From assembly GCA_028282925.1 (NCBI GenBank), contig JANQGV010000016.1:1-33748 (forward strand): 33,748 bases of DNA, given 5' to 3'. Within the stretch, counting starts at the first letter, position 1, and the number at the start of each line of letters is the position of its first letter. Below the pieces are notes generated by a model. The model was not told the origin of the DNA. It saw nothing but the letters and a program-made list of their open reading frames with translations, and ran no database searches. Origin of the DNA: Thermodesulfobacteriota bacterium (GTDB taxonomy: Bacteria > Desulfobacterota > WTBG01 > CAIYCZ01 > CAIRTM01). Made by a program: the position numbers and the translations under genes. Below are positions 2,989 to 33,748 of the stretch, in pieces.

Positions 2989-5874
2989 TTACCGTTTCAG
3001 GTTGATCAACTCGGCCAGCATGTCGTCGGTGGTGGTAATAATACGCGAATTGGCCTGGAAACCGCGCTGCTGAATAATCATGTTCACAAACTCGGTCGAG
3101 AGATCCACGTTGGACTGCTCCAGGGAGTTCGGCGCAATTTTTCCAAGGCCCGCGCTGCCGGCCGTACCGGTAATGGGCTGACCCGAAGTACGTGTTTCGG
3201 AGTACAGGTTACCACCCTCACGGCTCAAGCCCCACGGGTTGATAAAATCGGCCAGGGCCACACGTGCCAGGTACAGCACCTGCCCATTGGAATAGTTACC
3301 GGTCATAACACCGTCGGAGTCCACCGCTACATCCTGCAGGAAGCCAGAGCCGTAACCGTCCTGGGTCTGGAATATGGTTGAAGACGGGGCCGAAAACTGG
3401 GTCGATACGTTGGTGTCGGACCCCAGGCCGAAATCTATATCAATTTCCTGCTGGGGCTCTGCCCCGCTGCCAAAGTCAAATCCGGTACCATCCGATACAA
3501 CGCCGGTAGTGGGATCAACCACCTGTGTCAACCACTCAATGGCCGATTCACTTCTCAACTGGCCCGACTGGTCAAACACCAGGGTACCACGGGCCTGCAC
3601 CTCGGCCTCGCCCGAAGCCGTATCCGATGAAGGCACATAGGCAAACCATTCCCATGAAGTACGGTTATCATCACTCACATAAGCTTTACGGAAATAAAAC
3701 GATACGGTATGCTGATTACCAAGCGAGTCATACAACACCAGGGATGTTGAATAGTTAGCGGTCTCATCTGGGTTAGATACATCAAACCCCACTCCGTAAT
3801 TAACCGTGTTATCATCAATGTTAAGTGTACCACCTACTAAATCATCTGGTAAATTGGCTGGATTACTAAAATCATTCTCAAATGTAGTAAGCTGAATTGT
3901 TGAATTTGCGCCAAGTTCAGTAGATGCAATGCGGAAGCGACCACCCTGGGTTTCGTCTACTTCGGTAAAGGAAACTTCAACCTGCTCTGTTTCTCCTTCA
4001 GCATCCAGGGCATCATTTATCTGGGTTTCAAGTTCAAGGGCAAGTTCGTTCCCGGTATAAACACCAGCCGTTATAGTAACCGTAACAGGCGTACCTGAAT
4101 TAGCCGGATTCCCGTTAACTGTTACATTAAGCTCATCATTATCACCATTTAAAATATTAAAGGCAACACTCCGGACACCATCAATGGATGTTCCAGCATT
4201 AAGTAAGTTTGTTGCTGTAGCAGTAGTTGATACAAACCCAAGGGTTTCATCAATAGTTGATGCTGTCCAGTCCAGAGTATAATTCGTTGCCCCACCACCA
4301 GAAGTTAAATTATTTAGTGTGAAAATATCAGTTACCGGATTATATGTTACACTAATAGTATTAGCACCAAACGCTGCTGTATTTACAATTCTCCAGGTAA
4401 GTGCCTCGGCCACCTCCTGACCGGTATATGTTTCACCTGCGGTTATTACAGTACCATCAGCTGTTTGTGCATTAATTATATCAAGGTTGGTTGCGGGGGG
4501 TCCTACAGATAAAATATTATTAGTCCCACCCTGAAAGGTAAAAGCACTGGTTGTGTCTGAACGAGACTCAGTAAACCCGGGCACGGTAAACCCATTTGCT
4601 TCAACGGCAGTTACCTCTTCATAATTAACGATATTAATGGTGGGTAAAAAATTGTTGGCAATTGCCTCCATTTGTATAGCCGAGCCGTTCTCCTCACCAC
4701 GAGTGCTGGTAAAAATCTGAAAACGATTCCTTGTGGGAGCACTTTCATCATAGCGAACATCAACCGTCAAATTTGCCGTAGCCTGGTTTGCGGCCAAAGC
4801 CGTATTAATCTGTTGTTCCATATGAAATCTAAGAAGTTCAATTGTATACACACCATTTGTAAGTTGGACAGTAACTGGCCCGGTTCCGTCAACATAGACA
4901 TTAAACGCATTGTTCTCATCGGTAACATTAAAAGCCACTTCACTTCCTGTTTCGCTTGAATTTGCACCCGCCTGGTCAGTAATTACCGTATTAACTGCTG
5001 TAGAAATACCAATTACAGCATTTGCAGACCCACCAGAATCAAACGTTATACTATTACCTGCAGCAGTTGTATTTGTAATTGTAAATGTATTAGTATCACT
5101 ATCATATGAAACTGTATAGCTTTGACCTGCAGTTGCATTATTATTTAATTCAGTTTGAATTGCCGCTGCCACCTCATCACCTGTATATACAGCTCCTTCT
5201 TCCAGTTGTGCTGTCGGAAGTAAAGGATTAACAAGATCGATAGTAACATTTCCGCTACCATCATCAAATACCAATTCATCATTAACCCCTTCATCAAACA
5301 CAAATCCACTCCGCGTAACCATATCCGATTCAACAAAAGCGGCGCTTTGCACAAACTCGGCCTGGGTATCCAGGTTGACTGCAATGTCCACATTCTCGGT
5401 TTCCTGAGGCGAAGACGACGTGGCATTGATCTGGATATCGGTAATGGCGCCGCGAGGATCAGGCTCATTGGGGTCGAGAATCCAGCCCTGCACACGGTAG
5501 CCTGCCGGGTTCACAAGAAAGCCTTCCTCGTCGAATTTAAAATGCCCGGCACGGGTATAGAACATACCCGTCTCAGTACTGCGCACCATGAAAAACCCGT
5601 CGCCGCCGATTGCCATGTCCGTTGCTTCGCTTGTACCTTCGAACGATCCCTGGGCCCACACATAGTCTACGGAGCTCATTGCAACACCGCGGCCGATCTG
5701 GGACGTACCGGTTGCATCGGTAATACTCTGGGCGAGCAGGGTCTCAAAGGATGCCCTCGATGCTTTAAAGCCTATGGTATTTACGTTTGCTATGTTGTCG
5801 CCGATAACACTCATGGAGTTTCCCAACGTGTTTAATCCGCTGACACCCGCAAACATTGCACTGGATATACCCAT
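2989..5874 (-). CDS. flgE: Flagellar hook protein FlgE, enlarged
   Basis: Structural subunit of the flagellar hook, exported by the flagellar type III system. The N-terminus carries the rod/hook signature (GLNTLGNSMSVIGDNIANVN, about residues 13-32). The C-terminus carries the matching helical signature (EFVNMIIQQRGFQANSRI followed by LINLKR-stop). At 961 residues it is about twice the usual 400-440. The excess is a central insert (about residues 185-700, nt 3775-5322) of four related ~95-residue blocks, each with a GxYTGxE-type motif followed by a helix ending in 'IN'. This insert is visibly AT-richer than the flanks. The start has GAAGGAG 8 nt upstream. It is the last gene of fliK-flgD-flgE, 55 bp after flgD. 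Confidence 0.95.
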   Translation of the reverse strand: MGISSAMFAGVSGLNTLGNSMSVIGDNIANVNTIGFKASRASFETLLAQSITDATGTSQIGRGVAMSSVDYVWAQGSFEGTSEATDMAIGGDGFFMVRSTETGMFYTRAGHFKFDEEGFLVNPAGYRVQGWILDPNEPDPRGAITDIQINATSSSPQETENVDIAVNLDTQAEFVQSAAFVESDMVTRSGFVFDEGVNDELVFDDGSGNVTIDLVNPLLPTAQLEEGAVYTGDEVAAAIQTELNNNATAGQSYTVSYDSDTNTFTITNTTAAGNSITFDSGGSANAVIGISTAVNTVITDQAGANSSETGSEVAFNVTDENNAFNVYVDGTGPVTVQLTNGVYTIELLRFHMEQQINTALAANQATANLTVDVRYDESAPTRNRFQIFTSTRGEENGSAIQMEAIANNFLPTINIVNYEEVTAVEANGFTVPGFTESRSDTTSAFTFQGGTNNILSVGPPATNLDIINAQTADGTVITAGETYTGQEVAEALTWRIVNTAAFGANTISVTYNPVTDIFTLNNLTSGGGATNYTLDWTASTIDETLGFVSTTATATNLLNAGTSIDGVRSVAFNILNGDNDELNVTVNGNPANSGTPVTVTITAGVYTGNELALELETQINDALDAEGETEQVEVSFTEVDETQGGRFRIASTELGANSTIQLTTFENDFSNPANLPDDLVGGTLNIDDNTVNYGVGFDVSNPDETANYSTSLVLYDSLGNQHTVSFYFRKAYVSDDNRTSWEWFAYVPSSDTASGEAEVQARGTLVFDQSGQLRSESAIEWLTQVVDPTTGVVSDGTGFDFGSGAEPQQEIDIDFGLGSDTNVSTQFSAPSSTIFQTQDGYGSGFLQDVAVDSDGVMTGNYSNGQVLYLARVALADFINPWGLSREGGNLYSETRTSGQPITGTAGSAGLGKIAPNSLEQSNVDLSTEFVNMIIQQRGFQANSRIITTTDDMLAELINLKR

Positions 5875-5929
5875 GGATTAATCTCCTTCTCGTATATATA
5901 AATTATGTTTCATTAACCATATAATAGAC

Positions 5930-7111
5930 TTACAGAAACAACGGAGCGGCTCTTACCGCCATGGACCCAACGTCCTTGATAAAATCGGCCACAGCCCTGA
6001 ACGAGCTCGACCCGCTGTCTTTAATCTCGATAATATCGTCCACCGGTATCAGAAGTTGCCCGATTACGGCATAGGCGTTTTTCTCGGCATCATAGGTTAT
6101 GCTGTCAACCGTTCCGTTCACCAGGGACTGTGAATTAACCGACCGGCCGTCGCTGTCCGAAGCCGATACCTTAAAGAGGTAAGTACCGGCCGCAACCTCT
6201 GTACCGGACTCGTCGGTGCCGTCCCAGTCGCAGTACTGGGTACCGGCAATCCGTTTGCCGCAATCAATGGTCTTCACCAGGTTGCCTTCGGTGTCGTATA
6301 CTTTAACGGACACGTTTTCGGCGTCACTGCCCAGGCTGTAGAAAAGGCGCGGCTGGTTGTCGCCGTCGTAATAGGTCTGTTCACTGGAAGCGGTTACCTC
6401 TTTGCCGATCATGGCCAGGTAGTCCTTGGTTGAAGTGCCGGCAACATTATCGCCGATTTCAATTACATCGCCGATGGCCACATTCTGGTCGTCAACCGTC
6501 AGATAGGTAACCCCGTTTTCAAAGGTAATACCGTCCACAACACCGGTGAGCATGGTGGTAACATCAACGGCATCATCATTGAGATCGACCGGGTAAACCT
6601 TGAATGTGTAGTTTCCTTCGGCAAGTGCATTGCCGTTGGAATCGGTACCGTCCCAGTACACGGTCTGGGGGCCGCTGGTCTGGGATCCTTTATACAGGGT
6701 GTTTATCAGTTTTCCATTGGCGTCATAAATGCTGATAGATACCTTGGCGGCATCGGCTCCAAGCGAATACCTGATGTTTCCGCCTGCATTTTCATCCAGG
6801 TGCACGCTGTTACCGGCGGCAATAACCTCCTTGCCGATAAAATTAACCGATTGAGAGTTATTGATGGAGGCCATATACAATTGCAGGTAGGTCAGGTTTT
6901 CGTTTACCCCCTGCAACTGCGAGACAGTGTTGATCTGGGCCAGTTGTGCCGTAAACTCGGTATTTTCCATGGGGTCCAGCGGGTCCTGGTACTGAATTTG
7001 GGCCATGAGCATGGTCAGGAACTGCTCCTGTATTTCATCGGCTGTGGTGGGCTGATTAGAGTTTGACTGGGTCGTATTGTACGTGCTTGCTAATGGGTCT
7101 ACTACCGACAT
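5930..7111 (-). CDS. flgD: Hook-capping protein FlgD with duplicated C-terminal domain
   Basis: FlgD caps the growing hook so that FlgE can polymerise. The conserved N-terminal segment is clear (FLTMLMAQIQYQDPLDPMEN, residues 31-50, then EFTAQLAQINTVSQLQ). Typical FlgD has one tudor/Ig-like C-terminal module (total ~220-240 residues). Here there are two in tandem, residues ~91-220 and ~235-364. Both run IGKEV, YSLG(A/S)DA, a beta-hairpin with DGTD, 'aeGnYtFKV', then a 'dvIEI' end. A short unique tail follows. It sits between fliK (52 bp upstream) and flgE (55 bp downstream). The ribosome site is weak, so translation may depend on fliK read-through. Confidence 0.93.
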   Translation of the reverse strand: MSVVDPLASTYNTTQSNSNQPTTADEIQEQFLTMLMAQIQYQDPLDPMENTEFTAQLAQINTVSQLQGVNENLTYLQLYMASINNSQSVNFIGKEVIAAGNSVHLDENAGGNIRYSLGADAAKVSISIYDANGKLINTLYKGSQTSGPQTVYWDGTDSNGNALAEGNYTFKVYPVDLNDDAVDVTTMLTGVVDGITFENGVTYLTVDDQNVAIGDVIEIGDNVAGTSTKDYLAMIGKEVTASSEQTYYDGDNQPRLFYSLGSDAENVSVKVYDTEGNLVKTIDCGKRIAGTQYCDWDGTDESGTEVAAGTYLFKVSASDSDGRSVNSQSLVNGTVDSITYDAEKNAYAVIGQLLIPVDDIIEIKDSGSSSFRAVADFIKDVGSMAVRAAPLFL

Positions 7112-7162
7112 GGCACTCTATTCATTTAAAGGTTACTCTATACCCGGTTTTATTAATCGGTG

Positions 7163-8926
7163 TTATGCCAACAGATCGAGTCTGTCGTTTTCAATTATCT
7201 GGTTGTACATGGCGGCCTGCAATATCTCATGGGTGGATGGCACACCGCCCTCGCCTTGTTCACTGTCCCCTTCGCCGGTCTGTTTATTGCCTTTGCCCTG
7301 GTTGTTTTCACGCAGAAGCGATGCAAACTGCTTTCCATCCTGGCCCACATGCACCGAGAACTTTTCTACCTCGATATTCTGCACTTCCAGGGTATTGCGC
7401 AGTTGCTCGATGTTTGATTCAAGCACCTGTTTTACCTGGACTGTTTCGGCAATAACAACGGCCCGAAGCTGGTTGTCTTTCATGGAAAGCTCGATATTGA
7501 TTTTACCCAATTCAGGCGGGTGAAGCTGCATTGAAACGCGGTTTTCACCATTCTTCAGGGCTGCATTGATTTTTCCGGATATCTGGTCGAGGAGGTAGTT
7601 GGAGTTGACCGGCAGTTTTTCAGATGTTTTACTTAACAGCCCGGTGTGTTCGCTCTTCAAAACTTCCGGGTTGGTTTCAGTGCTGGTTACCACGTTCTGA
7701 AACAGGTTGACATTGTCAACTGTTTTAGGCCCGGCAGCGTCTTTTACCACCAGTTGTTCAAACAGTTGCGCGTCAAGTGATTGCAGCGGTATCTGCTTTT
7801 CAGTGGTTTCAGCGCCTGCCATATTCTGCATAATATCGGCAAACGCCGCCTGTGAATTCATATTGTTCAGCAGATAGGGGTTTACCTGCCCCTGGCCGTT
7901 CTGGTTCTGGCCGAACAGGGACGGGTTGTTGTTCATAAACGAACTGTTTTCCCCTGCCCCATTGCTGTTTTGCTTGAAAGAGGCAAGCAGCTCGTTGATT
8001 GTCCTTGTATCTTTATTGCCGTCGTTGGATGCCGTATTCTGCTCTGAGACGGTCTTTTTCAGCATTCCCTCGATGTTCTTCTCGCCGTTTTGCAGGGCCT
8101 GGAGTGCCTGTTCTTCTTTTGTCAAACCCTGGCCCTCTGTAACCTGCTGACCGTTGGGATTGGTATTGTTTGTTACCACCGGCGCATTCTCTTTAGCGGT
8201 TGCAAGCTCTGTCACGACTGCTTCCTTAAACGGCGTACCGCTTATGTCGGCATAGGTTTGCTGCAGCGCGTTACGAAGTTCGGTAAACCGGGCCAGTATG
8301 TCCTGCAACGGCGATGTCCGGCCGGTTGCGCCATTCGCACCGGTCAGGGCAAGCTGCTCTGCCCGCAGGCCTTCAAGTGTTTGGATAATAGAGTTCAGGG
8401 AGGTAATCAAATCTTCAAGGCCCTTCAGCAACTCATTTGCCTCCTGGCCCTGGAGTTCTTCAATGCTTTTACTGCCCAGCAGCATTTCAATGAGTGACAA
8501 CTGCTGATCCTGTTCCTGACCCGCTGAATCGATAAACATCTGGGCAAGCTCGTCCTGGTCCATATTAGGGAACAGCGCCTGCAGCAACTGCAGATCTTCG
8601 GCGGTCAGCGTATCCTGAAGCAGTTCCGCAAGATCGGCCTGGTTCAGGCCGCCTTTGCCGTTTGCAAGGGCAGCAGCTATCTTTTTCATAACCACATTCA
8701 GGGCCTGCATGGTATCGGTGGAACTGATATCCAGGCCGTTACCGCCTGCAAGGCCTGTAAGCTGACCCGGAAGTGTCTGCGCGGTGTGGTTGGTAGCGGA
8801 AAGCAGACCCTGGAGAATACCCTCGAAACCGCCGGACGAGCCGTTACCGTTCTGTCCGCCGATCGACTGAATGCCGGTCGGGCTTCCAGGGTTTCCAAGC
8901 AACATTTGTAAAGGATTGGTCTGCAT
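7163..8926 (-). CDS. fliK: Flagellar hook-length control protein FliK
   Basis: FliK measures hook length and switches the export gate from hook to filament substrates. The protein has 587 residues: a long low-complexity Gln/Asn/Gly-rich ruler region, then a conserved C-terminal Flg_hook domain at about residues 463-530. That domain shows LHPPELGKINIELSM, then the helix VKQVLESNIEQLRNTLE. A Glu/Gly-rich tail follows. The frame could start at a GTG at 8992, but those codons are a sigma-54 promoter, so they cannot be translated from its own transcript. The ATG at 8924-8926 with GAGGA a few bases upstream is chosen. It is the first gene of the hook cluster. Confidence 0.92.
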   Translation of the reverse strand: MQTNPLQMLLGNPGSPTGIQSIGGQNGNGSSGGFEGILQGLLSATNHTAQTLPGQLTGLAGGNGLDISSTDTMQALNVVMKKIAAALANGKGGLNQADLAELLQDTLTAEDLQLLQALFPNMDQDELAQMFIDSAGQEQDQQLSLIEMLLGSKSIEELQGQEANELLKGLEDLITSLNSIIQTLEGLRAEQLALTGANGATGRTSPLQDILARFTELRNALQQTYADISGTPFKEAVVTELATAKENAPVVTNNTNPNGQQVTEGQGLTKEEQALQALQNGEKNIEGMLKKTVSEQNTASNDGNKDTRTINELLASFKQNSNGAGENSSFMNNNPSLFGQNQNGQGQVNPYLLNNMNSQAAFADIMQNMAGAETTEKQIPLQSLDAQLFEQLVVKDAAGPKTVDNVNLFQNVVTSTETNPEVLKSEHTGLLSKTSEKLPVNSNYLLDQISGKINAALKNGENRVSMQLHPPELGKINIELSMKDNQLRAVVIAETVQVKQVLESNIEQLRNTLEVQNIEVEKFSVHVGQDGKQFASLLRENNQGKGNKQTGEGDSEQGEGGVPSTHEILQAAMYNQIIENDRLDLLA

Positions 8927-8976
8927 ATATTCCTCGTTAGTTCCTACACACACTTCTATTCCGCAACATTGCAAGA

Positions 8977-8991
8977 GCAAGGGCCATGCCA
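8977..8991 (-). promoter_or_regulatory. Sigma-54 (RpoN) promoter of fliK-flgD-flgE
   Basis: On the minus strand TGGCATG-GCCC-TTGC gives the GG/GC pair with the exact sigma-54 spacing; consensus is TGGCACG-N4-TTGC with one mismatch. It is preceded by a purine/T stretch, and transcription would start about 40 nt before the fliK ATG. Sigma-54 control of hook genes is well known in many flagellated bacteria and requires an activator such as FlrC/FlgR, not present in this window. Confidence 0.75.
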
Positions 8992-9470
8992 CATTGCGCC
9001 GGAAATTTATTTGTGATGGAATGCCGGACGTTTAAGATATTTCAGGCCCAAACGGCAATTTTTGGACAATAGGCAAAGGTAGGTAAATATGTGTTCCATG
9101 GTAGGCAAAAAGGTTCCGGTTTTGAACCAGTCAATCCCTTTTCACAGACGTTTTAAGTGCAGACCTCCGTTCAACCCTTTAACGAGGAATTTTACAGAAT
9201 TCACCACTATATAGCTATTACTACTCATCTTCAATCAGTTGTTTTTTTTCAAAAATAAGGCTTTGCCCAATACTATTTCATTAAACCCTATGATATATGT
9301 CTTTGTAACTGCACAAGATCCTCGAACGATGGAGTCTTTGTAGATTACAGGTATCAGGTAATCATACAAGATCCCATACGCACAAACAAAAGAGGGGCAA
9401 AAACAACATTACATAATCTAAAAACATACTCAGCAATTGTTCAAATCCCGTTTAATATGAATTAACGTGT
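8992..9470. other. AT-rich intergenic region between fliK and the TSP3 protein gene
   Basis: No credible reading frame or RNA gene was seen. The region separates divergent transcription units and would hold the activator sites for the sigma-54 promoter at its left edge. Nothing recognisable was found beyond that. Confidence 0.5.
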
Positions 9471-9593: not shown

Positions 9594-11609
9594 ATGCATA
9601 TTCTAATTACAATTCTTACGTTCATAATCATTTCACTAAGCATTCCACAAAACAGTTATGGAATCGCCTATTGGGAAAATGCCTATGGGGGCAGCGGAGC
9701 TGAAAGCATAAACATAACCATACCCACCACAGATACAAGATTTGGTCATTATTTAACACTCGGAAAAAGTGCATCATTTGGAGACAGGCTCTGGGCGGTA
9801 AATCTTAAAGAAAACGGGGATATCTTTTGGGAAAGGACCATTCATACTGCATTAATAAACGTCTGGTCCGTATGCCAGGGCGACCTCAATACCTCCGTAA
9901 TAGCCGGATCAACAAACTTTGCCGGTAATGGGAGTAATGTATGTTTAATGAGAATTCATAATAGCAATGGAAGCATATCATGGAATATGACGCTGGGAGG
10001 TACCGATGAAGAATCTGCAGCATGCATTGCTCAGACATCTGACGGTGGGTACATTGTATCAGGATTTACCAAAAGTTTCGGTGCTAGTGGTAGAGATGGA
10101 TACATTGTTAAAGTTCCAACCAATGGTGGTGGATATGAATGGAAAAGAATGATCGGCAGCACAGGGGATGAGAACATCACCTCTATTCGTCAATTGGACG
10201 ACGGCGGATACATCATGTGCGGAACAACCGACAGCACACTTGGCGGCGACATTGATGTATGGGTTATCCGCCTGAATTCAAACCTGGATAAAACCTTTGA
10301 AAAACATTATGGTGGAACCGGAAGTGATGTTGCATTTGCGGTTCGCCCTATTCCGGATGATAAATTTGTTGTTTTCGGAAGAACAAATTCATACAGTGCA
10401 CCAGCTGAGGATATCTGGCTACTTAAACTTGACGGATCAGGCAATATCTTGTCTGAAAAAACAATCGGAAGTTCAGGTAATGAATACATTAGAAGTGATG
10501 AAGCGGTACATATGACCTATGATAATGGTGTTTATGATGGATTTATTATTACCGGCGACACAACTTCATTTGGAAATGGCGGAAATGATTTCTTTGCCCT
10601 TAAACTTGCAGCGGATTTGACGATAGAATGGCAGAAAGCATATGGAGGTTCCGACCATGAATATGCATATTCAATTTTTCCGGACACCGCCGGCGGATAT
10701 GTTATTTCCGGCACCACACATTCATTCGGCACTGGTAATTCCGATTCTTTGATCATCAAACTGGATGAATACGGTGATGTTACAAATTGCACCAATATCG
10801 TAAACTGCTCGTTTACGAGTACCAACACATCGGCTTCCATTGGCCAACTTAATGTTGGCCTTGTTGATCCGGGCATCACTGTAACTATACCAACATATAC
10901 AACACAGGACACTACAGCCGAAGTTACACCTGTTTGTATATATATCGATACCGATGACGACTCAATTTTTGATGACGGAAACGGCGACAACATACGCGGC
11001 AACACCCCCTGCACCGGCGGGGCAACAACAAACTGTGACGATAACTGCCCGTTAACGGTAAACGGCGACCAGGCGGACCCTGACGGTGACGGAATCGGAA
11101 CGGTTTGTGATAATTGCCCTGACGACGCTAATGCCGACCAGGAGAATTTTGACAGTGATGAATTCGGTGATGTATGCGATTCAGACATCGACGGTGATTT
11201 GATTGATGAAGACGGTGATGGTGACGGAACACCGGGCAACAATCCATGTACCGGAGGTGCAACAACAGCCTGTGATGACAACTGCCCGACTGTTGCCAAC
11301 CCTGTACAGGAGAATTCCGATACAGATCATCATGGCGATGTATGCGATAATTGCCCGTATGTTGACAATGATTACCAAACCAATTCCGACACTGACAGTC
11401 ATGGAGACGCATGCGACAACTGCCCGAATGATGATAATGAGGATTTAGCCAATTCAGACACCGACAGCCACGGCGATGTTTGCGATAACTGCCCAACTAC
11501 GTGCAACGAACTGCAGAATGATGAAGATCAGGACGGCATAGGAGATGTGTGCGACCCTGAACCGAACTGTGTACAATGTGGCGTAGACAACTGTGAAAAA
11601 CCATGCTAA
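9594..11609 (+). CDS. Exported protein: propeller-like repeats plus thrombospondin type 3 repeats
   Basis: 671 residues. An N-terminal signal peptide (about residues 1-23, hydrophobic core then SYG) targets it for export. Residues ~25-400 contain about six copies of a ~55-residue repeat of the form 'GGxGxExaxxixxtxDGGYIvxGxTxSFGxGxxDxxxxKLdxxG', the pattern of beta-propeller-like secreted proteins. Residues ~445-660 are tandem Asp/Asn/Cys repeats (DxDxDGxGDxCDNCP), the Ca2+-binding thrombospondin type 3 motif, ending in a Cys-rich tail (CVQCGVDNCEKPC). It is probably secreted or surface-bound and Ca2+-stabilised. The start is well supported by AAGGAG. It has its own promoter and terminator, so it is monocistronic. 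Its biological role is not known. Confidence 0.85.
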   Translation: MHILITILTFIIISLSIPQNSYGIAYWENAYGGSGAESINITIPTTDTRFGHYLTLGKSASFGDRLWAVNLKENGDIFWERTIHTALINVWSVCQGDLNTSVIAGSTNFAGNGSNVCLMRIHNSNGSISWNMTLGGTDEESAACIAQTSDGGYIVSGFTKSFGASGRDGYIVKVPTNGGGYEWKRMIGSTGDENITSIRQLDDGGYIMCGTTDSTLGGDIDVWVIRLNSNLDKTFEKHYGGTGSDVAFAVRPIPDDKFVVFGRTNSYSAPAEDIWLLKLDGSGNILSEKTIGSSGNEYIRSDEAVHMTYDNGVYDGFIITGDTTSFGNGGNDFFALKLAADLTIEWQKAYGGSDHEYAYSIFPDTAGGYVISGTTHSFGTGNSDSLIIKLDEYGDVTNCTNIVNCSFTSTNTSASIGQLNVGLVDPGITVTIPTYTTQDTTAEVTPVCIYIDTDDDSIFDDGNGDNIRGNTPCTGGATTNCDDNCPLTVNGDQADPDGDGIGTVCDNCPDDANADQENFDSDEFGDVCDSDIDGDLIDEDGDGDGTPGNNPCTGGATTACDDNCPTVANPVQENSDTDHHGDVCDNCPYVDNDYQTNSDTDSHGDACDNCPNDDNEDLANSDTDSHGDVCDNCPTTCNELQNDEDQDGIGDVCDPEPNCVQCGVDNCEKPC

Positions 11610-12725: not shown

Positions 12726-12770
12726 TTGACTATAGCAATCCATATTGTATATACAATGTATATACAATAT
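12726..12770 (+). promoter_or_regulatory. mazEF promoter and palindromic operator
   Basis: TTGACT (12726-12731) is a good -35 box, with a -10 candidate inside the operator. The operator at 12742-12770 is a near-perfect 29-bp palindrome (one central mismatch) made of two overlapping 12-bp palindromes, TTGTATATACAA and TGTATATACAAT. AbrB-fold antitoxins normally bind such sites and repress their own operon; here it sits over the -10 region, 20 bp before mazE. Confidence 0.75.
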
Positions 12771-28073: not shown

Positions 28074-31000
28074 CTACTGGACAACGGTAATGTAAAAAAT
28101 ATCCGTTTCGGTCCTCTGGCCGATGCAGTCTTCGGAGAAGAACCGTATTTCAAACGGCCCGGTGCCCGACAGGTCGCACAGGTCGAGCCAGCTATACGGC
28201 CAGTACGTGTCGCTGCCGCCGGTGCGCATTTCCTGCGGGTAAGCATACCGGGTGGTCCACTCCTGATCAGTATAGGTTTTGTATTGCCACCCGATTACCA
28301 TGGTTGAGTTGTCCGGGCAGCGGTTGGAATCGTTACTGTTTGACCAGACAATTTCCTGGTGGAGGTATGCTGTCCGGTTGTCATCCGTTACCTGGAGCGG
28401 ATTTGCCGGGTCGGTTGACATCTGGCAGTAGCCGGACGTGGGTGGAACGCCGGTTCCCCGGCACATCGTCTGCCCCGACGTAACAAAATATATCGGATCT
28501 GTGAGGCCCGGCGGAAGATCGCCCACACCGTCGAACGCCCCGATGTCCCAGCCGCCGGTGTCGTCGTTCTGGCCCAGGTAGGACGGGGAAGGCAGGCCCG
28601 GTACCTCTTCGGCCACAATGCCGGTCATGGCAATGCCGTAGCGCACAGCCGGAAATGCTTTCTCGTCCCACATGCCGGGATAGTCGTTGTTGAAGGCGGT
28701 TTCAAGCAGGGTAATGGCGGCAAGGGTTTCCGAAGCCGTGATGCTGTAGGGGTTCAGGATATAGTGATGATCATCGTCTACGTCTATGCCTGCATGCAGG
28801 GCCGGTGAACCGGGCAGCAGGGTGAAATCGTAATTCGCCGGATCGGCGAGTGCCGGGTCGGCCCACTGGTTGCCGGTCATAACGGGGACTCTCAATTCAG
28901 TGTCGGTGATCAGAGGCACCGGTCCGGGAGAATAGCCCATTGCTTCCATAAACCCGCTTCTGTCCAGGACCTCAACGTTGTTGTTGGCAGGCCAGTCCAC
29001 CCAGGTTTGAAAATCGGCATTTATGGTTGTGTTGTTGGCATAGTCCATAACCCTGAAGCGATCTGTAGATGAGCTGTTGTCGCAGTTGGGAGAGTCCGTG
29101 CACCAGAAAATATTGTTGACCCAGTCGGCATACCCTTGGGACGGACAGGTCCCGGCCTCGTTCCATGTGTCGTCGATGCTGATATTGTTGGCTTTGTATC
29201 CGTGGGTTACATAGCCGATAACCTCAGGGGATTGACGTTCGGCACCGGTCGTATCGCAGGTGCCGCTGTCGCCACAGGTATAATCTCCGAAAAAGTACAT
29301 ATCAAAAAAACCCGCCTGTCCGCCGGTATCGATACAGGCCTCGCCGTCGCGGGCGCCGCCGACACAGGTGCCGATATCACAGCGCGATCCACCGCAAAAC
29401 TGTACTTCGGGGTCGCCGGGCCGCAGGGCATAGGGGGTTTCCCATATGGCAAGTGTTCCGCCGTCGCCCATGCCGCCGCCTTCATAGCCGCCGGGAAAAT
29501 AGGGCATAAAAGTCCAGCCGAGATTGTTGTTGTAGACAACATTGTTGTAAATTTTACATCCCTCTCCGATAGCAGACAATCCGGGTCCGGCGTTGCTGTA
29601 GGTGATGTTGCCGTAAAGCAGGCCGTAGTAATTACCTTCGCTCATATAAATTCCCTGGGAATCATTGGGATGTTCACCGGGTGCGTAGGGGTAATCGCAG
29701 GCCTGGTATGTCCCGGGCGCTGTTTCACACATATTGTTGTGGTGCACAACGTTCCAGCGGATTACCGGACGTATACCGTTCACAACCATGAGGCCCATGC
29801 CTTCTATCCGGCCGGTGTGATGTATATAGTTGTTTTGAACGAGGGTATCGATGCCGCCGATAAAAATACCGTTTGCATCGGTGTAGGAAATGACATTATT
29901 CTCAATGGTGGTGTTTTCAGCATGGTAGAAGGACCTGTATTCAGCGCCGTTTACAGTTGCCGGGTGAAAGCCGAAACCAAATTCAGCGGTGCCTACCGGT
30001 GCTCCGCCGACTCCGGAAGTGGAGCTGTAGAACAGACTGTTGCGGACAAGAGTGTTTTGTGCATGATGCACATACACACTATACATGGTTTGGCCGGGGG
30101 TGCTGTTGTCGGCCAGAATGTTTTCAAAAATACAGTTGTCGACAAGTGCGCCCGATACATAATCAAGCTGGATGCCCCGGATGTTGGAATCGATGAAGGT
30201 GCAATTGTCGATGGTGATATTGTTGCCTTCGGTTATATCATCATCATTGACATAGGTTGCATCATATCCTGCAAACTGTGTAACGGATGCAGACCGTCTC
30301 CCATTGGGAAGCACGGTGATAAGCCCGCCTTTTTCCTGCACGAGTTTAGAATGATCAAACTGGCCGCCCTGGAACCGGATTTTTGAAACAGTTACGTTTG
30401 AACCTTTGAGCCACAGGGCGTAGTTGGCGGTGCCGGCATCGATGACCGGTGCCGTGGTGCCGGAGCCGTAGCTGGAAATGGTTACCGGGTTTCCTTCCGA
30501 GCCGGAACCGGTAAAAACGATCTGCTCGTCCCAGGTGTCGCCCTTTTTCAGCAGTATCCGGTTTCCCGGCTCAAAGGTGCCGTTGTCGGCCTCTTCCTGC
30601 ACTTTGGCGAGGGTGCTCCAGGGGCCGTGGCCGTAGCCGTCTGATACCGGGGAGAGACCGTCGTTGGTATTATTGCCCTGATTTGTTATGTAGTAGGTTG
30701 ATTTATCATTATCTTCAACAGTAAAATAAAAGGTGCCCGACTGCGTTTCCTGGGCGGCACAGTCCGTAACCGAAAAGGTGAACTCATAGGTGCCTTCCGG
30801 CATTTCCGTTACCGGGACAACCACATAGGCAATGTCTTTGCCGTCAAACACGTCGGTATATACCGGGGAAAGTGGTATGGGGGTGCTGTCGCCCACTTTC
30901 ATACACTGGGCCGCATGGGTGCAGGCACCGCTGCACGATGCGTAGTCGTCGCTGTATGACCAGACAAGGGTCATGTTGTCGATAAATACCGGGTCATTGC

Positions 31001-31187
31001 CGGATGTTGAGGGTAAGGTGTACCATTTCCCACCCACAAAGGGTCCGTCGATAATCTGTGGAGGATCGTCGTTAAGCTGCTGCGCGGAAAGAGATAATGA
31101 ACGATCCTGCATTGTTTTTGCCCAAACCGAACCTGCGGCACACATCAAAAAAACTGTCAAGAGTAACGTCAGTATCCGTGATTGCAT
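28074..31187 (-). CDS. Large exported beta-helix protein with related domains at both ends
   Basis: 1037 residues with a signal peptide (MQSRILTLLLTVFLMCAAG, cleavage near WAK). Residues ~160-250 match the opening of parallel beta-helix carbohydrate-active proteins ('GNNTNDGLSP...PWSTLAKVQEEA...PGNRILLKKGDTWDEQI'). Then follow ~350 residues of PbH1-like repeats with Asn/Cys-rich rungs, and a Cys-rich middle. The domain at ~72-158 (VWSYSDDYASC ... TDCAAQETQSGTFYFTV) reappears at ~947-1037 (VWSNSNDSNRC ... EDCIGQRTETDIFYITV). Cys are numerous, suggesting disulfides outside the cell. AAGGAGG 5 nt before this ATG fixes the start; a frame reaching 31292 is unsupported. It may be a polysaccharide lyase or adhesin; unproven. 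Confidence 0.85.
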   Translation of the reverse strand: MQSRILTLLLTVFLMCAAGSVWAKTMQDRSLSLSAQQLNDDPPQIIDGPFVGGKWYTLPSTSGNDPVFIDNMTLVWSYSDDYASCSGACTHAAQCMKVGDSTPIPLSPVYTDVFDGKDIAYVVVPVTEMPEGTYEFTFSVTDCAAQETQSGTFYFTVEDNDKSTYYITNQGNNTNDGLSPVSDGYGHGPWSTLAKVQEEADNGTFEPGNRILLKKGDTWDEQIVFTGSGSEGNPVTISSYGSGTTAPVIDAGTANYALWLKGSNVTVSKIRFQGGQFDHSKLVQEKGGLITVLPNGRRSASVTQFAGYDATYVNDDDITEGNNITIDNCTFIDSNIRGIQLDYVSGALVDNCIFENILADNSTPGQTMYSVYVHHAQNTLVRNSLFYSSTSGVGGAPVGTAEFGFGFHPATVNGAEYRSFYHAENTTIENNVISYTDANGIFIGGIDTLVQNNYIHHTGRIEGMGLMVVNGIRPVIRWNVVHHNNMCETAPGTYQACDYPYAPGEHPNDSQGIYMSEGNYYGLLYGNITYSNAGPGLSAIGEGCKIYNNVVYNNNLGWTFMPYFPGGYEGGGMGDGGTLAIWETPYALRPGDPEVQFCGGSRCDIGTCVGGARDGEACIDTGGQAGFFDMYFFGDYTCGDSGTCDTTGAERQSPEVIGYVTHGYKANNISIDDTWNEAGTCPSQGYADWVNNIFWCTDSPNCDNSSSTDRFRVMDYANNTTINADFQTWVDWPANNNVEVLDRSGFMEAMGYSPGPVPLITDTELRVPVMTGNQWADPALADPANYDFTLLPGSPALHAGIDVDDDHHYILNPYSITASETLAAITLLETAFNNDYPGMWDEKAFPAVRYGIAMTGIVAEEVPGLPSPSYLGQNDDTGGWDIGAFDGVGDLPPGLTDPIYFVTSGQTMCRGTGVPPTSGYCQMSTDPANPLQVTDDNRTAYLHQEIVWSNSNDSNRCPDNSTMVIGWQYKTYTDQEWTTRYAYPQEMRTGGSDTYWPYSWLDLCDLSGTGPFEIRFFSEDCIGQRTETDIFYITVVQ

Positions 31188-31209
31188 CTGTTCCTCCTTT
31201 TCATTACGA

Positions 31210-31230
31210 TAAGATCCGGCCCGGATCTTA
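31210..31230. promoter_or_regulatory. Perfect 21-bp palindrome just upstream of the beta-helix gene
   Basis: TAAGATCCGG (31210-31219) and CCGGATCTTA (31221-31230) flank a single base. It lies 23 bp upstream of the ATG, close to the ribosome site. It could be a repressor operator or a mRNA hairpin that controls translation. Confidence 0.55.
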
Positions 31231-32121
31231 CCAGACTCCACTCTGCGGCCCTTGTGCATTGTGAGATGCACCTGCTCCGCATGCATCCTCAATCAGGTGC
31301 GGCGTATGGCAACCGGCCCTCGGGTGTGCGTGATTTGAGGGTGGAACGCGTTGCAGTCAGGACCTTCCCTAGACTGTTTTACGAATTGTAACTGCTTTCC
31401 ATGCGGTACCTTTTGAAAACAACCTGCCGTCGTTATACTGTTTACGGCATTGCAGGCCTGCTCTGTAGTGGTCACTGCATTGAAAACATCCGGTACTCTT
31501 TCCCCCCTTTCACCGTAAGAGTGTTCATGTCCGGCCCGAAAAAATGCATTTCGGGAATGATTTAATTATTGCTTGTATGCGAGGCCGGTAACGCCGTACC
31601 ATCGGGTTGTGAAGCAGGGGTGAGGGTATCAGGCCGGCCTGATGTCATGACCTGTGCCGTAATGGGTGCGGTAGAAAGTGGATACAACTCTATCGATACG
31701 GTTTTTCTCATGCGTCCCCCCCCTGGAAACCATGGATTTTGATACACGGCCAGCAGTTGTCAATGCCTGCGCCCGTTCATCGCAGCATACGGCGCAGTAA
31801 CAAAGGAACCGTGTAACCCGGTGTATTGTGTTGTGACGAGTTTTTTTACTACTGGTGTGTTCGTTCAGTGCACATACTACTCGATTTTGTGCGTCTGTTC
31901 CAGTGAAAAAACTACTTTGTGGGAAAAAATCTGCGCCCAGCCAAAAAAATTGAGTAGTTCTTGTCAGATGTATGGGGCCGATACATATATTGATTCACAA
32001 GCCATGCAAAAAAAACATTCATGCTTTTTTTTGTTGTAGAAATGAAATTCCGAGATCGCCCGGTTGTGCTCGAAGATAAGGCCACCTGGAGCCGGTAAGA
32101 ACTTCCCTTTTTGATTTTGCC
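31231..32121. other. Intergenic region between divergent surface-protein genes
   Basis: About 0.9 kb with no convincing gene. It contains the right-hand inverted repeat noted separately, poly-A/poly-T tracts around 31990-32040, and presumably the promoter of the beta-helix gene, which was not identified. Short frames with Ser/Thr/Pro-rich translations are treated as chance. Confidence 0.5.
31876..31958. repeat. Inverted repeat with 57-nt spacer
   Basis: ACTACTCGATTTT (31876-31888) and AAAATTGAGTAGT (31946-31958) match at 12 of 13 positions. A short AT-rich run with repeated A tracts lies between. It may be a transposon end relic. Confidence 0.45.
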
Positions 32122-32150: not shown

Positions 32151-32339
32151 TTACATACGAAATGGGGCAATTGCCGCAGAAAAGACCAGAACCATTCAAA
32201 CAAATTTTTTTGTTAGATTTACAGGCATAAGCCCGTATATTTCCACGGTAGTACCAGCACCAAAACCAGGAGGTGAACTCAACATCTAAACATTTTACAG
32301 GGTTTTCCGTAGACAAATTGTTTTTATAGGGAGGTTGAC

Positions 32340-33748
32340 ATGAGACACCGTTTCAATTTGATTAATGCAGTACTGATAGGGCTTGTTTGTAGTATGGCAT
32401 GGGGCAGTATCTGTTTTGCCCAGTGTACCGTTGATGACGACGGTGACGGAAAATATGACTATAGTTGCGCAAGCTGTACCCCTCTTGATTCCGGATGCGA
32501 TTTCAACGACAGTGTGGCCGACGATAATCCTGTTACCCTTTTATACGATGACGGCACTGCGGAGAGTCTGTATACCTATGGAGATATAGATTTTACCCTG
32601 GTAACGCCGGTTTTTCATCCGGACCGTACTCAGACAAAGAGTTACTGTGAGGATTTGACCTGGGGTGGCCTTTCAAACTGGCAGCCCCTGGACGAACATG
32701 ACGTATGGAAGCTGGCCGCAGCAAACTATCCCTATGACACTCAATGCAATAACCATAATTCAAGCTGGGGCTGCGAGATTTATACCCGCTCCTGGGACAG
32801 CCCGACCCCCTGGGTTGCGCCACCTGAACCCTGGGCATCAGAACTCGATATGATGCTCTTAAACGGCAACTGGTACCGGAGCTGGTTTACCTACCTGGGC
32901 GGGCCGTATTCACAGTCCGGCGAATACTTTTTCCGTGTCCGTGAGTCCGACGGATACAGTTCTCCGAAGTTTGAAATTGATCTCCGCTGGTACGATGCTG
33001 AGCCGGTTGTCATCTGTAAAGCAGCCGCGTGTACCGTTGAGGTTGCTGTAGGACCCTGTACGGATGTGGTTTCAAATACCACATTGGTGCTGGATGATTC
33101 TGACTGCGATGGTATTGCTGATGCAGGTTTTGACTGCGATGGGGCAAATCCTGATGTTCCTGCCGACAATTGTCCGTTTGTGCCTAATGCGGAGCAGGAT
33201 GACTGCGACGGAGACGGCATTGGTGATGCCTGCGATCCCGATCTCGACGCTGATGATGACGGAAAAAATAATTACCTGTGCACCGGCTGCGGCCCCCTTG
33301 ACGAAGGTTGTGACTTGAACGACAGTATCCCGGACGACAAGCCGGTTGGCCTTATGCATGATGACGGCACTACCGACAGCCTGCATACCTATGCAGACGT
33401 AGATTTCAACCGTGTAACGCCGGTTTTTCATCCGGACCGTTCACAGACAAAAAGTTACTGCGAGGACTTGACCTGGGGCGGCATTTCAAGCTGGGAGCCC
33501 CTGGACGAACATGACGTATGGAAGCTGGCCGCAGCAAACTATCCCTATGACACCCAATGCAATACCCATAATCCAAACTGGGGTTGCGAGATCTATACCC
33601 GCTCCTGGAACAGCCCGACCCCCTGGGTAGCACCGCCCGAGCCCTGGGCATCGGAACTCAACATGATGCTGTATAACGGCAACTGGTACCGGAGCTGGTT
33701 TACGTACCTGGGCGGCCCATACTCACAGTCCGGCGAATACTTTTTCCG
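32340..33748 (+). CDS. Long exported repeat protein with TSP3 repeats (3' partial)
   Basis: The frame is open from the ATG at 32340 to the right edge (469 codons), so the gene continues beyond. GGGAGG 5 nt upstream fixes the start. A signal peptide (~1-27, cleaved after CFA) is followed by an Asp-rich DDDGDGKYDY stretch. Then comes a ~190-residue domain with 'TKSYCEDLTWGG', 'LDEHDVWKLAAANYPYDTQCN', 'WGCEIYTRSW' and 'SQSGEYFFRV', then TSP3-like Ca2+ motifs (DSDCDGIADAG ... DNCPFVPNAEQDDCDGDGIGDACD). The same domain restarts 813 bp later. The 'YC..L..GG' and late 'FRVRE' are reminiscent of DUF1566/Lcl-type surface domains, which is a weak suggestion. It is likely a Ca2+-stabilised surface or adhesive protein. 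Confidence 0.85.
   Translation, partial: MRHRFNLINAVLIGLVCSMAWGSICFAQCTVDDDGDGKYDYSCASCTPLDSGCDFNDSVADDNPVTLLYDDGTAESLYTYGDIDFTLVTPVFHPDRTQTKSYCEDLTWGGLSNWQPLDEHDVWKLAAANYPYDTQCNNHNSSWGCEIYTRSWDSPTPWVAPPEPWASELDMMLLNGNWYRSWFTYLGGPYSQSGEYFFRVRESDGYSSPKFEIDLRWYDAEPVVICKAAACTVEVAVGPCTDVVSNTTLVLDDSDCDGIADAGFDCDGANPDVPADNCPFVPNAEQDDCDGDGIGDACDPDLDADDDGKNNYLCTGCGPLDEGCDLNDSIPDDKPVGLMHDDGTTDSLHTYADVDFNRVTPVFHPDRSQTKSYCEDLTWGGISSWEPLDEHDVWKLAAANYPYDTQCNTHNPNWGCEIYTRSWNSPTPWVAPPEPWASELNMMLYNGNWYRSWFTYLGGPYSQSGEYFF
32436..33748 (+). repeat. 813-bp in-frame tandem repeat within the exported protein
   Basis: The sequence from about 32436 recurs from 33249 with an offset of exactly 813 bp (271 codons); for example GTAACGCCGGTTTTTCATCC at 32601 recurs at 33414. 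Nucleotide identity is high through the second copy, which is cut by the window edge, and substitutions are mostly silent or conservative. Confidence 0.85.

Follow-up and report, generated by a model that had tools for sequence, protein, structure and literature searches.

A two-domain exported protein that closes beyond the contig edge

The window analysed here (a stretch of 33,748 nucleotides, which is the entire contig C264 of a 324-contig, 5.6-Mb draft genome) ends inside a gene whose product is probably a finite, ordinary-sized exported protein of 688 residues, complete on assembly evidence. The best reading, to which the same degree of confidence applies as a whole, is by analogy that of a bivalent, lectin-like exported adhesin kept by a lineage-specific C-terminal module. 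Its parts are, in order, a signal peptide, Lcl_C-like domain 1, a TSP3-like linker, Lcl_C-like domain 2, a Thr-rich linker, a Cys-rich segment and an FN3-like C-terminal module.

An uninterrupted open reading frame runs on the + strand from the ATG at 32340 to the window edge, preceded by a Shine–Dalgarno-like sequence that can be read directly (TAGGGAGG, containing GGGAGG; 32329–32336, + strand). The gene is visible over 469 of its 688 codons (32340–33748, + strand), the rest lying in contig C116 (locus L016), with the stop at 12752 on the − strand of that contig. Sequence features indicate a signal peptide (MRHRFNLINAVLIGLVCSMAWGSICFA; 32340–32420, + strand) with a putative cleavage site. 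Domain copy 1 (32439–33035, + strand), assigned as remotely Lcl_C/DUF1566-like from repeat and profile comparisons, is followed by an Asp-rich, TSP3-like linker (33090–33251, + strand; DSDCDGIADAGFDCDG...DNCPFVPNAEQDDCDGDGIGDACDPDLDA) and then by the first 165 residues of copy 2 (33252–33748, + strand), the remainder of which is in C116.

The linker conforms to the thrombospondin type 3 motif DxDxDGxxDxxDNCPxxxNxxQxDxDxDGxGDxCD, reading DGIADAGFDCDG..DNCPFVPNAEQDDCDGDGIGDACD. It gives a partial match (21.8 bits, approximately 57 residues) to the TSP3 part of the NCBIfam model NF047638, which describes the TSP3 cohesion protein MtsC, and so falls below the curated membership cut-off of 350. The two kinds of protein have in common Asp-rich TSP3-type motifs in an exported chain; unlike MtsC, the present protein has no MYXO-CTERM. 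The sequence-only reading had also reported TSP3 motifs in the protein at 9594–11609 of the window, and these are real: it is an exported protein with DGGYIVSG-type (propeller-like) repeats, then a 69-bp tandem array of TSP3 motifs, and it has neither the ~190-residue domain nor the C-terminal module. Elsewhere in the window lie flagellar hook genes on the − strand (2989–8992), encoding FlgD, FliK and a long FlgE of 961 residues, and, also on the − strand (28074–31292), a 1,072-residue right-handed β-helix protein with a weak chondroitinase B-like match.

The contig joint

The final 99 bases of the window (33650–33748, + strand) are identical, with zero mismatches, to the first 99 of C116 taken as its reverse complement. 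A second contig pair, C3 and C117, also overlaps by exactly 99 bases, and the recurrence of this length points to the k-mer of a de Bruijn assembler as the source of the joint. No overlapping contig was found in the bin for the left end of the window. Past the joint, the frame runs for 219 more residues and then stops, with no further repeat unit. The gene had been described as unfinished at the edge: the frame is indeed open at the end of the window, but that edge is the end of a contig and the protein closes in C116. The accompanying proposal of a giant, many-repeat Ca2+ protein is rejected on this joint; a stop soon after the window with no further unit had been set beforehand as the outcome that would count against it, and that is what C116 holds.

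Could C116 be something other than the true neighbour, joined through a chimera of strain variants? The assembly is a draft of metagenome type, in which branch points give rise to contig ends, but we regard a chimera as highly improbable. The frame is preserved through the exact 99-bp overlap, copy 2 as completed from C116 aligns with copy 1 up to the end of the domain, and the C-terminal module in C116 is the one with which a homologue from the same order (G010/L080) also ends.

A second alternative is a longer array that encodes a larger repeat protein, its three or more copies having been merged by the assembler into a short loop contig that escaped binning. The contig break does fall within copy 2, and the shortest of approximately 20 sampled contigs is 1,840 bp, so a loop contig of about 912 bp would probably be absent from the bin. 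Against this, the overlap between C264 and C116 is direct and has exactly the length k = 99. A tandem loop needs copies that are identical over exactly 99 bp, as any longer identity would place a separate contig between them, and copies 1 and 2 differ inside the 99-bp stretch. A search of the genome found no third copy, the only places with the domain being C264 and the extreme end of C116, and the homologue in the same order has a single copy. We consider a longer array unlikely: extra collapsed copies are possible but not favoured, and nothing supports a giant protein.

Two copies of long standing

The 271-codon unit is present twice in frame, with a start-to-start spacing of 813 bp; the window itself holds all of copy 1 and the greater part of copy 2. 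In these respects (frame, signal, spacing and TSP3 linker) the original description of the protein stands, but the 'high' nucleotide identity it ascribed to the copies is 83% (418 of 501 comparable bases in the window). Identity is graded along the unit, from approximately 60–70% at the 5′ end to 88–98% in mid-unit, and the copies are approximately 80% identical as protein. Their similarity is far above chance, yet it is not high identity.

Comparing copy 1 with copy 2, the latter completed from C116, over 198 codons gives dS of ~0.72, dN of ~0.11 and dN/dS of 0.15. By these values the duplication is old and constrained, with both copies under purifying selection, and not a recent expansion. 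Recent expansion or gene conversion had been proposed from the supposed high identity, and recent expansion is rejected on this synonymous divergence.

A remote relative of Lcl_C

The ~190-residue domain is not recognized by standard libraries. The profile search suggested for it by the sequence-only reading returned no family match in Pfam or NCBIfam; for Pfam, PF07603 included, nothing was found even at E ≤ 10 and the gathering cut-off was not reached, and all sequence searches of Pfam, NCBIfam and the PDB gave chance-level or untrustworthy matches. Its core sequence, DDGT ... YCEDLTWGG..W.PLDE.D.WKLA, resembles Lcl_C/DUF1566. Aligning the domain by hhalign to a profile built from 21 Lcl_C domains of the same class gave a collinear match with a score of 29.9 (P 0.00035); the best of 500 column shuffles scored 22.6, and the reversed profile 13.9. 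When an Lcl_C HMM was used to rank 825 ORFs plus two added proteins, the present ORF came directly below the three true Lcl_C proteins, both copies being matched in the same register, with weak single-sequence scores (E 0.11–0.24 over 827 sequences). In the opposite direction, an HMM of the repeat domain run over 16 genomes found a sole extra match (E 0.077), located inside an Lcl_C domain (G004:C76). Homology to Lcl_C thus holds at profile level, with modest significance.

Outside its own genome one relative of the domain was found, from the same order (46–48% identity), where it occurs once in a protein of 409 residues; scans of genome contigs returned what is apparently the same record (L080, from a Lac Pavin MAG), and scans of viral contigs found no relatives. 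An AlphaFold2 model of the domain from a three-row alignment has a pLDDT of 34.8, probably reflecting the lack of sequences.

With no database family match, weak pairwise signals, additional cysteines and one homologue only beyond the genome, the domain might instead be new and unrelated to Lcl_C, placing it in an exported protein of another function (an enzyme, or a cell-wall or pilus component). We think this rather unlikely, given a collinear profile match far above the shuffles, reciprocal weak matches to Lcl_C proteins and an architecture in common with Lcl_C pairs of the same lineage. There is good evidence at the level of sequence profiles, though not proof, that the domain is remotely related to Lcl_C/DUF1566 (PF07603).

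Paired Lcl_C domains in the lineage

Lcl_C is abundant in the class: 15 of the 16 genomes searched, the bacterium's own included, contain it, and one reaches 33 copies. By our own count, two or more tandem domains occur in 37 of 80 Lcl_C ORFs; the C-terminal module lies directly downstream of Lcl_C, in frame, in 11 of the 80. A contig of the same genome, C290, encodes a signal peptide, two Lcl_C domains and TSP3. The frequency of tandem domains and the C290 layout together make the domain pair a common arrangement in the lineage; what is unusual here is the divergence of the domains and a TSP3 linker sited between the copies. Other tandem proteins of the class (for example, G000:C290, G010:C303, G010:C89 and G013:C43) share the paired domains, a signal peptide where this was read (C290) and, in some, TSP3 or the same C-terminal module. 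Their domains are canonical with unit spacings of 381–723 bp, whereas those here are divergent and spaced at 813 bp; relative to canonical Lcl_C, the present domain has Cys pairs and an insertion.

The reference protein, Legionella Lcl, is extracellular and trimeric, with a DUF1566-containing C-terminal domain that binds sulphated glycosaminoglycans (PMC11162425). Both it and the present protein are exported or extracellular, and the helix-YC-L-GG-W-P-E-L core aligns together with the preceding DGT motif, the lectin-fold-like C-terminal domain being that of Lcl. In contrast to Lcl, the chain here has two divergent domains with extra cysteines, below Pfam detection, and ends in an FN3-like module; a TSP3 linker takes the place of the collagen stalk.

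By analogy with Lcl, each domain would share the C-type-lectin-like fold of that protein's C-terminal domain, and its ligand may be a polyanion or a carbohydrate. The TSP3 linker would be a Ca2+-binding, stiff spacer that allows bivalent binding, and the role of the C-terminal module would be in sorting the protein or holding it at the cell surface.

A C-terminal module shared by mostly unrelated exported proteins

The last ~105 residues (L016:12755–13075) form the FN3-like module, which occurs at 49 places in the same genome (for example, L050–L079), or 48 by profile at E 1e-6, so that about 48 other exported proteins share it. In 26 of 30 cases inspected, it ends within eight residues of the stop codon, usually as ATPRLIYG or a variant. 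Proteins bearing it have signal-like N termini in 19 of 20 cases (by a crude hydrophobicity test), and what remains of them is mostly unrelated, with 14 of 435 pairs being related. The module is concentrated in this class, where other genomes have as many as 34 copies, and is rare outside it. Downstream of the repeat-protein gene, three consecutive genes (L016:10294–12486, − strand) share a near-identical signal peptide (MKKLIISMAVVVSMVL) and have divergent mature parts, forming a paralogous exported set.

Neither Pfam nor NCBIfam yielded a trustworthy match to the module, and the PDB gave a weak FN3 lead only (3mpc, E 0.14). Its alignment has no LPXTG and no hydrophobic-plus-basic C-terminal tail of known anchors; AlphaFold2, run from two alignment rows, returned a pLDDT of 36. 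The placement at the extreme C terminus of many unrelated exported proteins recalls the sorting domains of type IX secretion (Por_Secre_tail and CHU_C), although neither matches the module in sequence. Por_Secre_tail was not found in the genome, and the protein shows no match to a T9SS cargo domain. A search for SprA gave no match, but its control was silent as well. From its position and distribution, we infer that the module behaves like a C-terminal sorting or retention module. More tentatively, it could be a lineage-specific signal for sorting or surface retention, read by a dedicated export or anchoring machinery, with the lectin-like protein as one cargo.

Discussion

The repeat is real, and the protein belongs, as a divergent, Lcl_C-like form, to a kind of exported protein already known; the giant Ca2+ repeat protein was a false lead, now removed. 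A surface system built on TSP3 repeats, as first suggested, is plausible, but Lcl_C-type pairs plus the shared C-terminal module describe its common element better than TSP3 repeats do. What emerges is an uncultured lineage with expanded lectin-like Lcl_C proteins, one of which has a domain too divergent for Pfam. The shared module is a more interesting thread than the repeat protein: the lineage places a single uncatalogued module at the C terminus of many exported proteins that are otherwise unrelated and, should this module serve as a sorting signal, an export or anchoring route not yet described would be implied.
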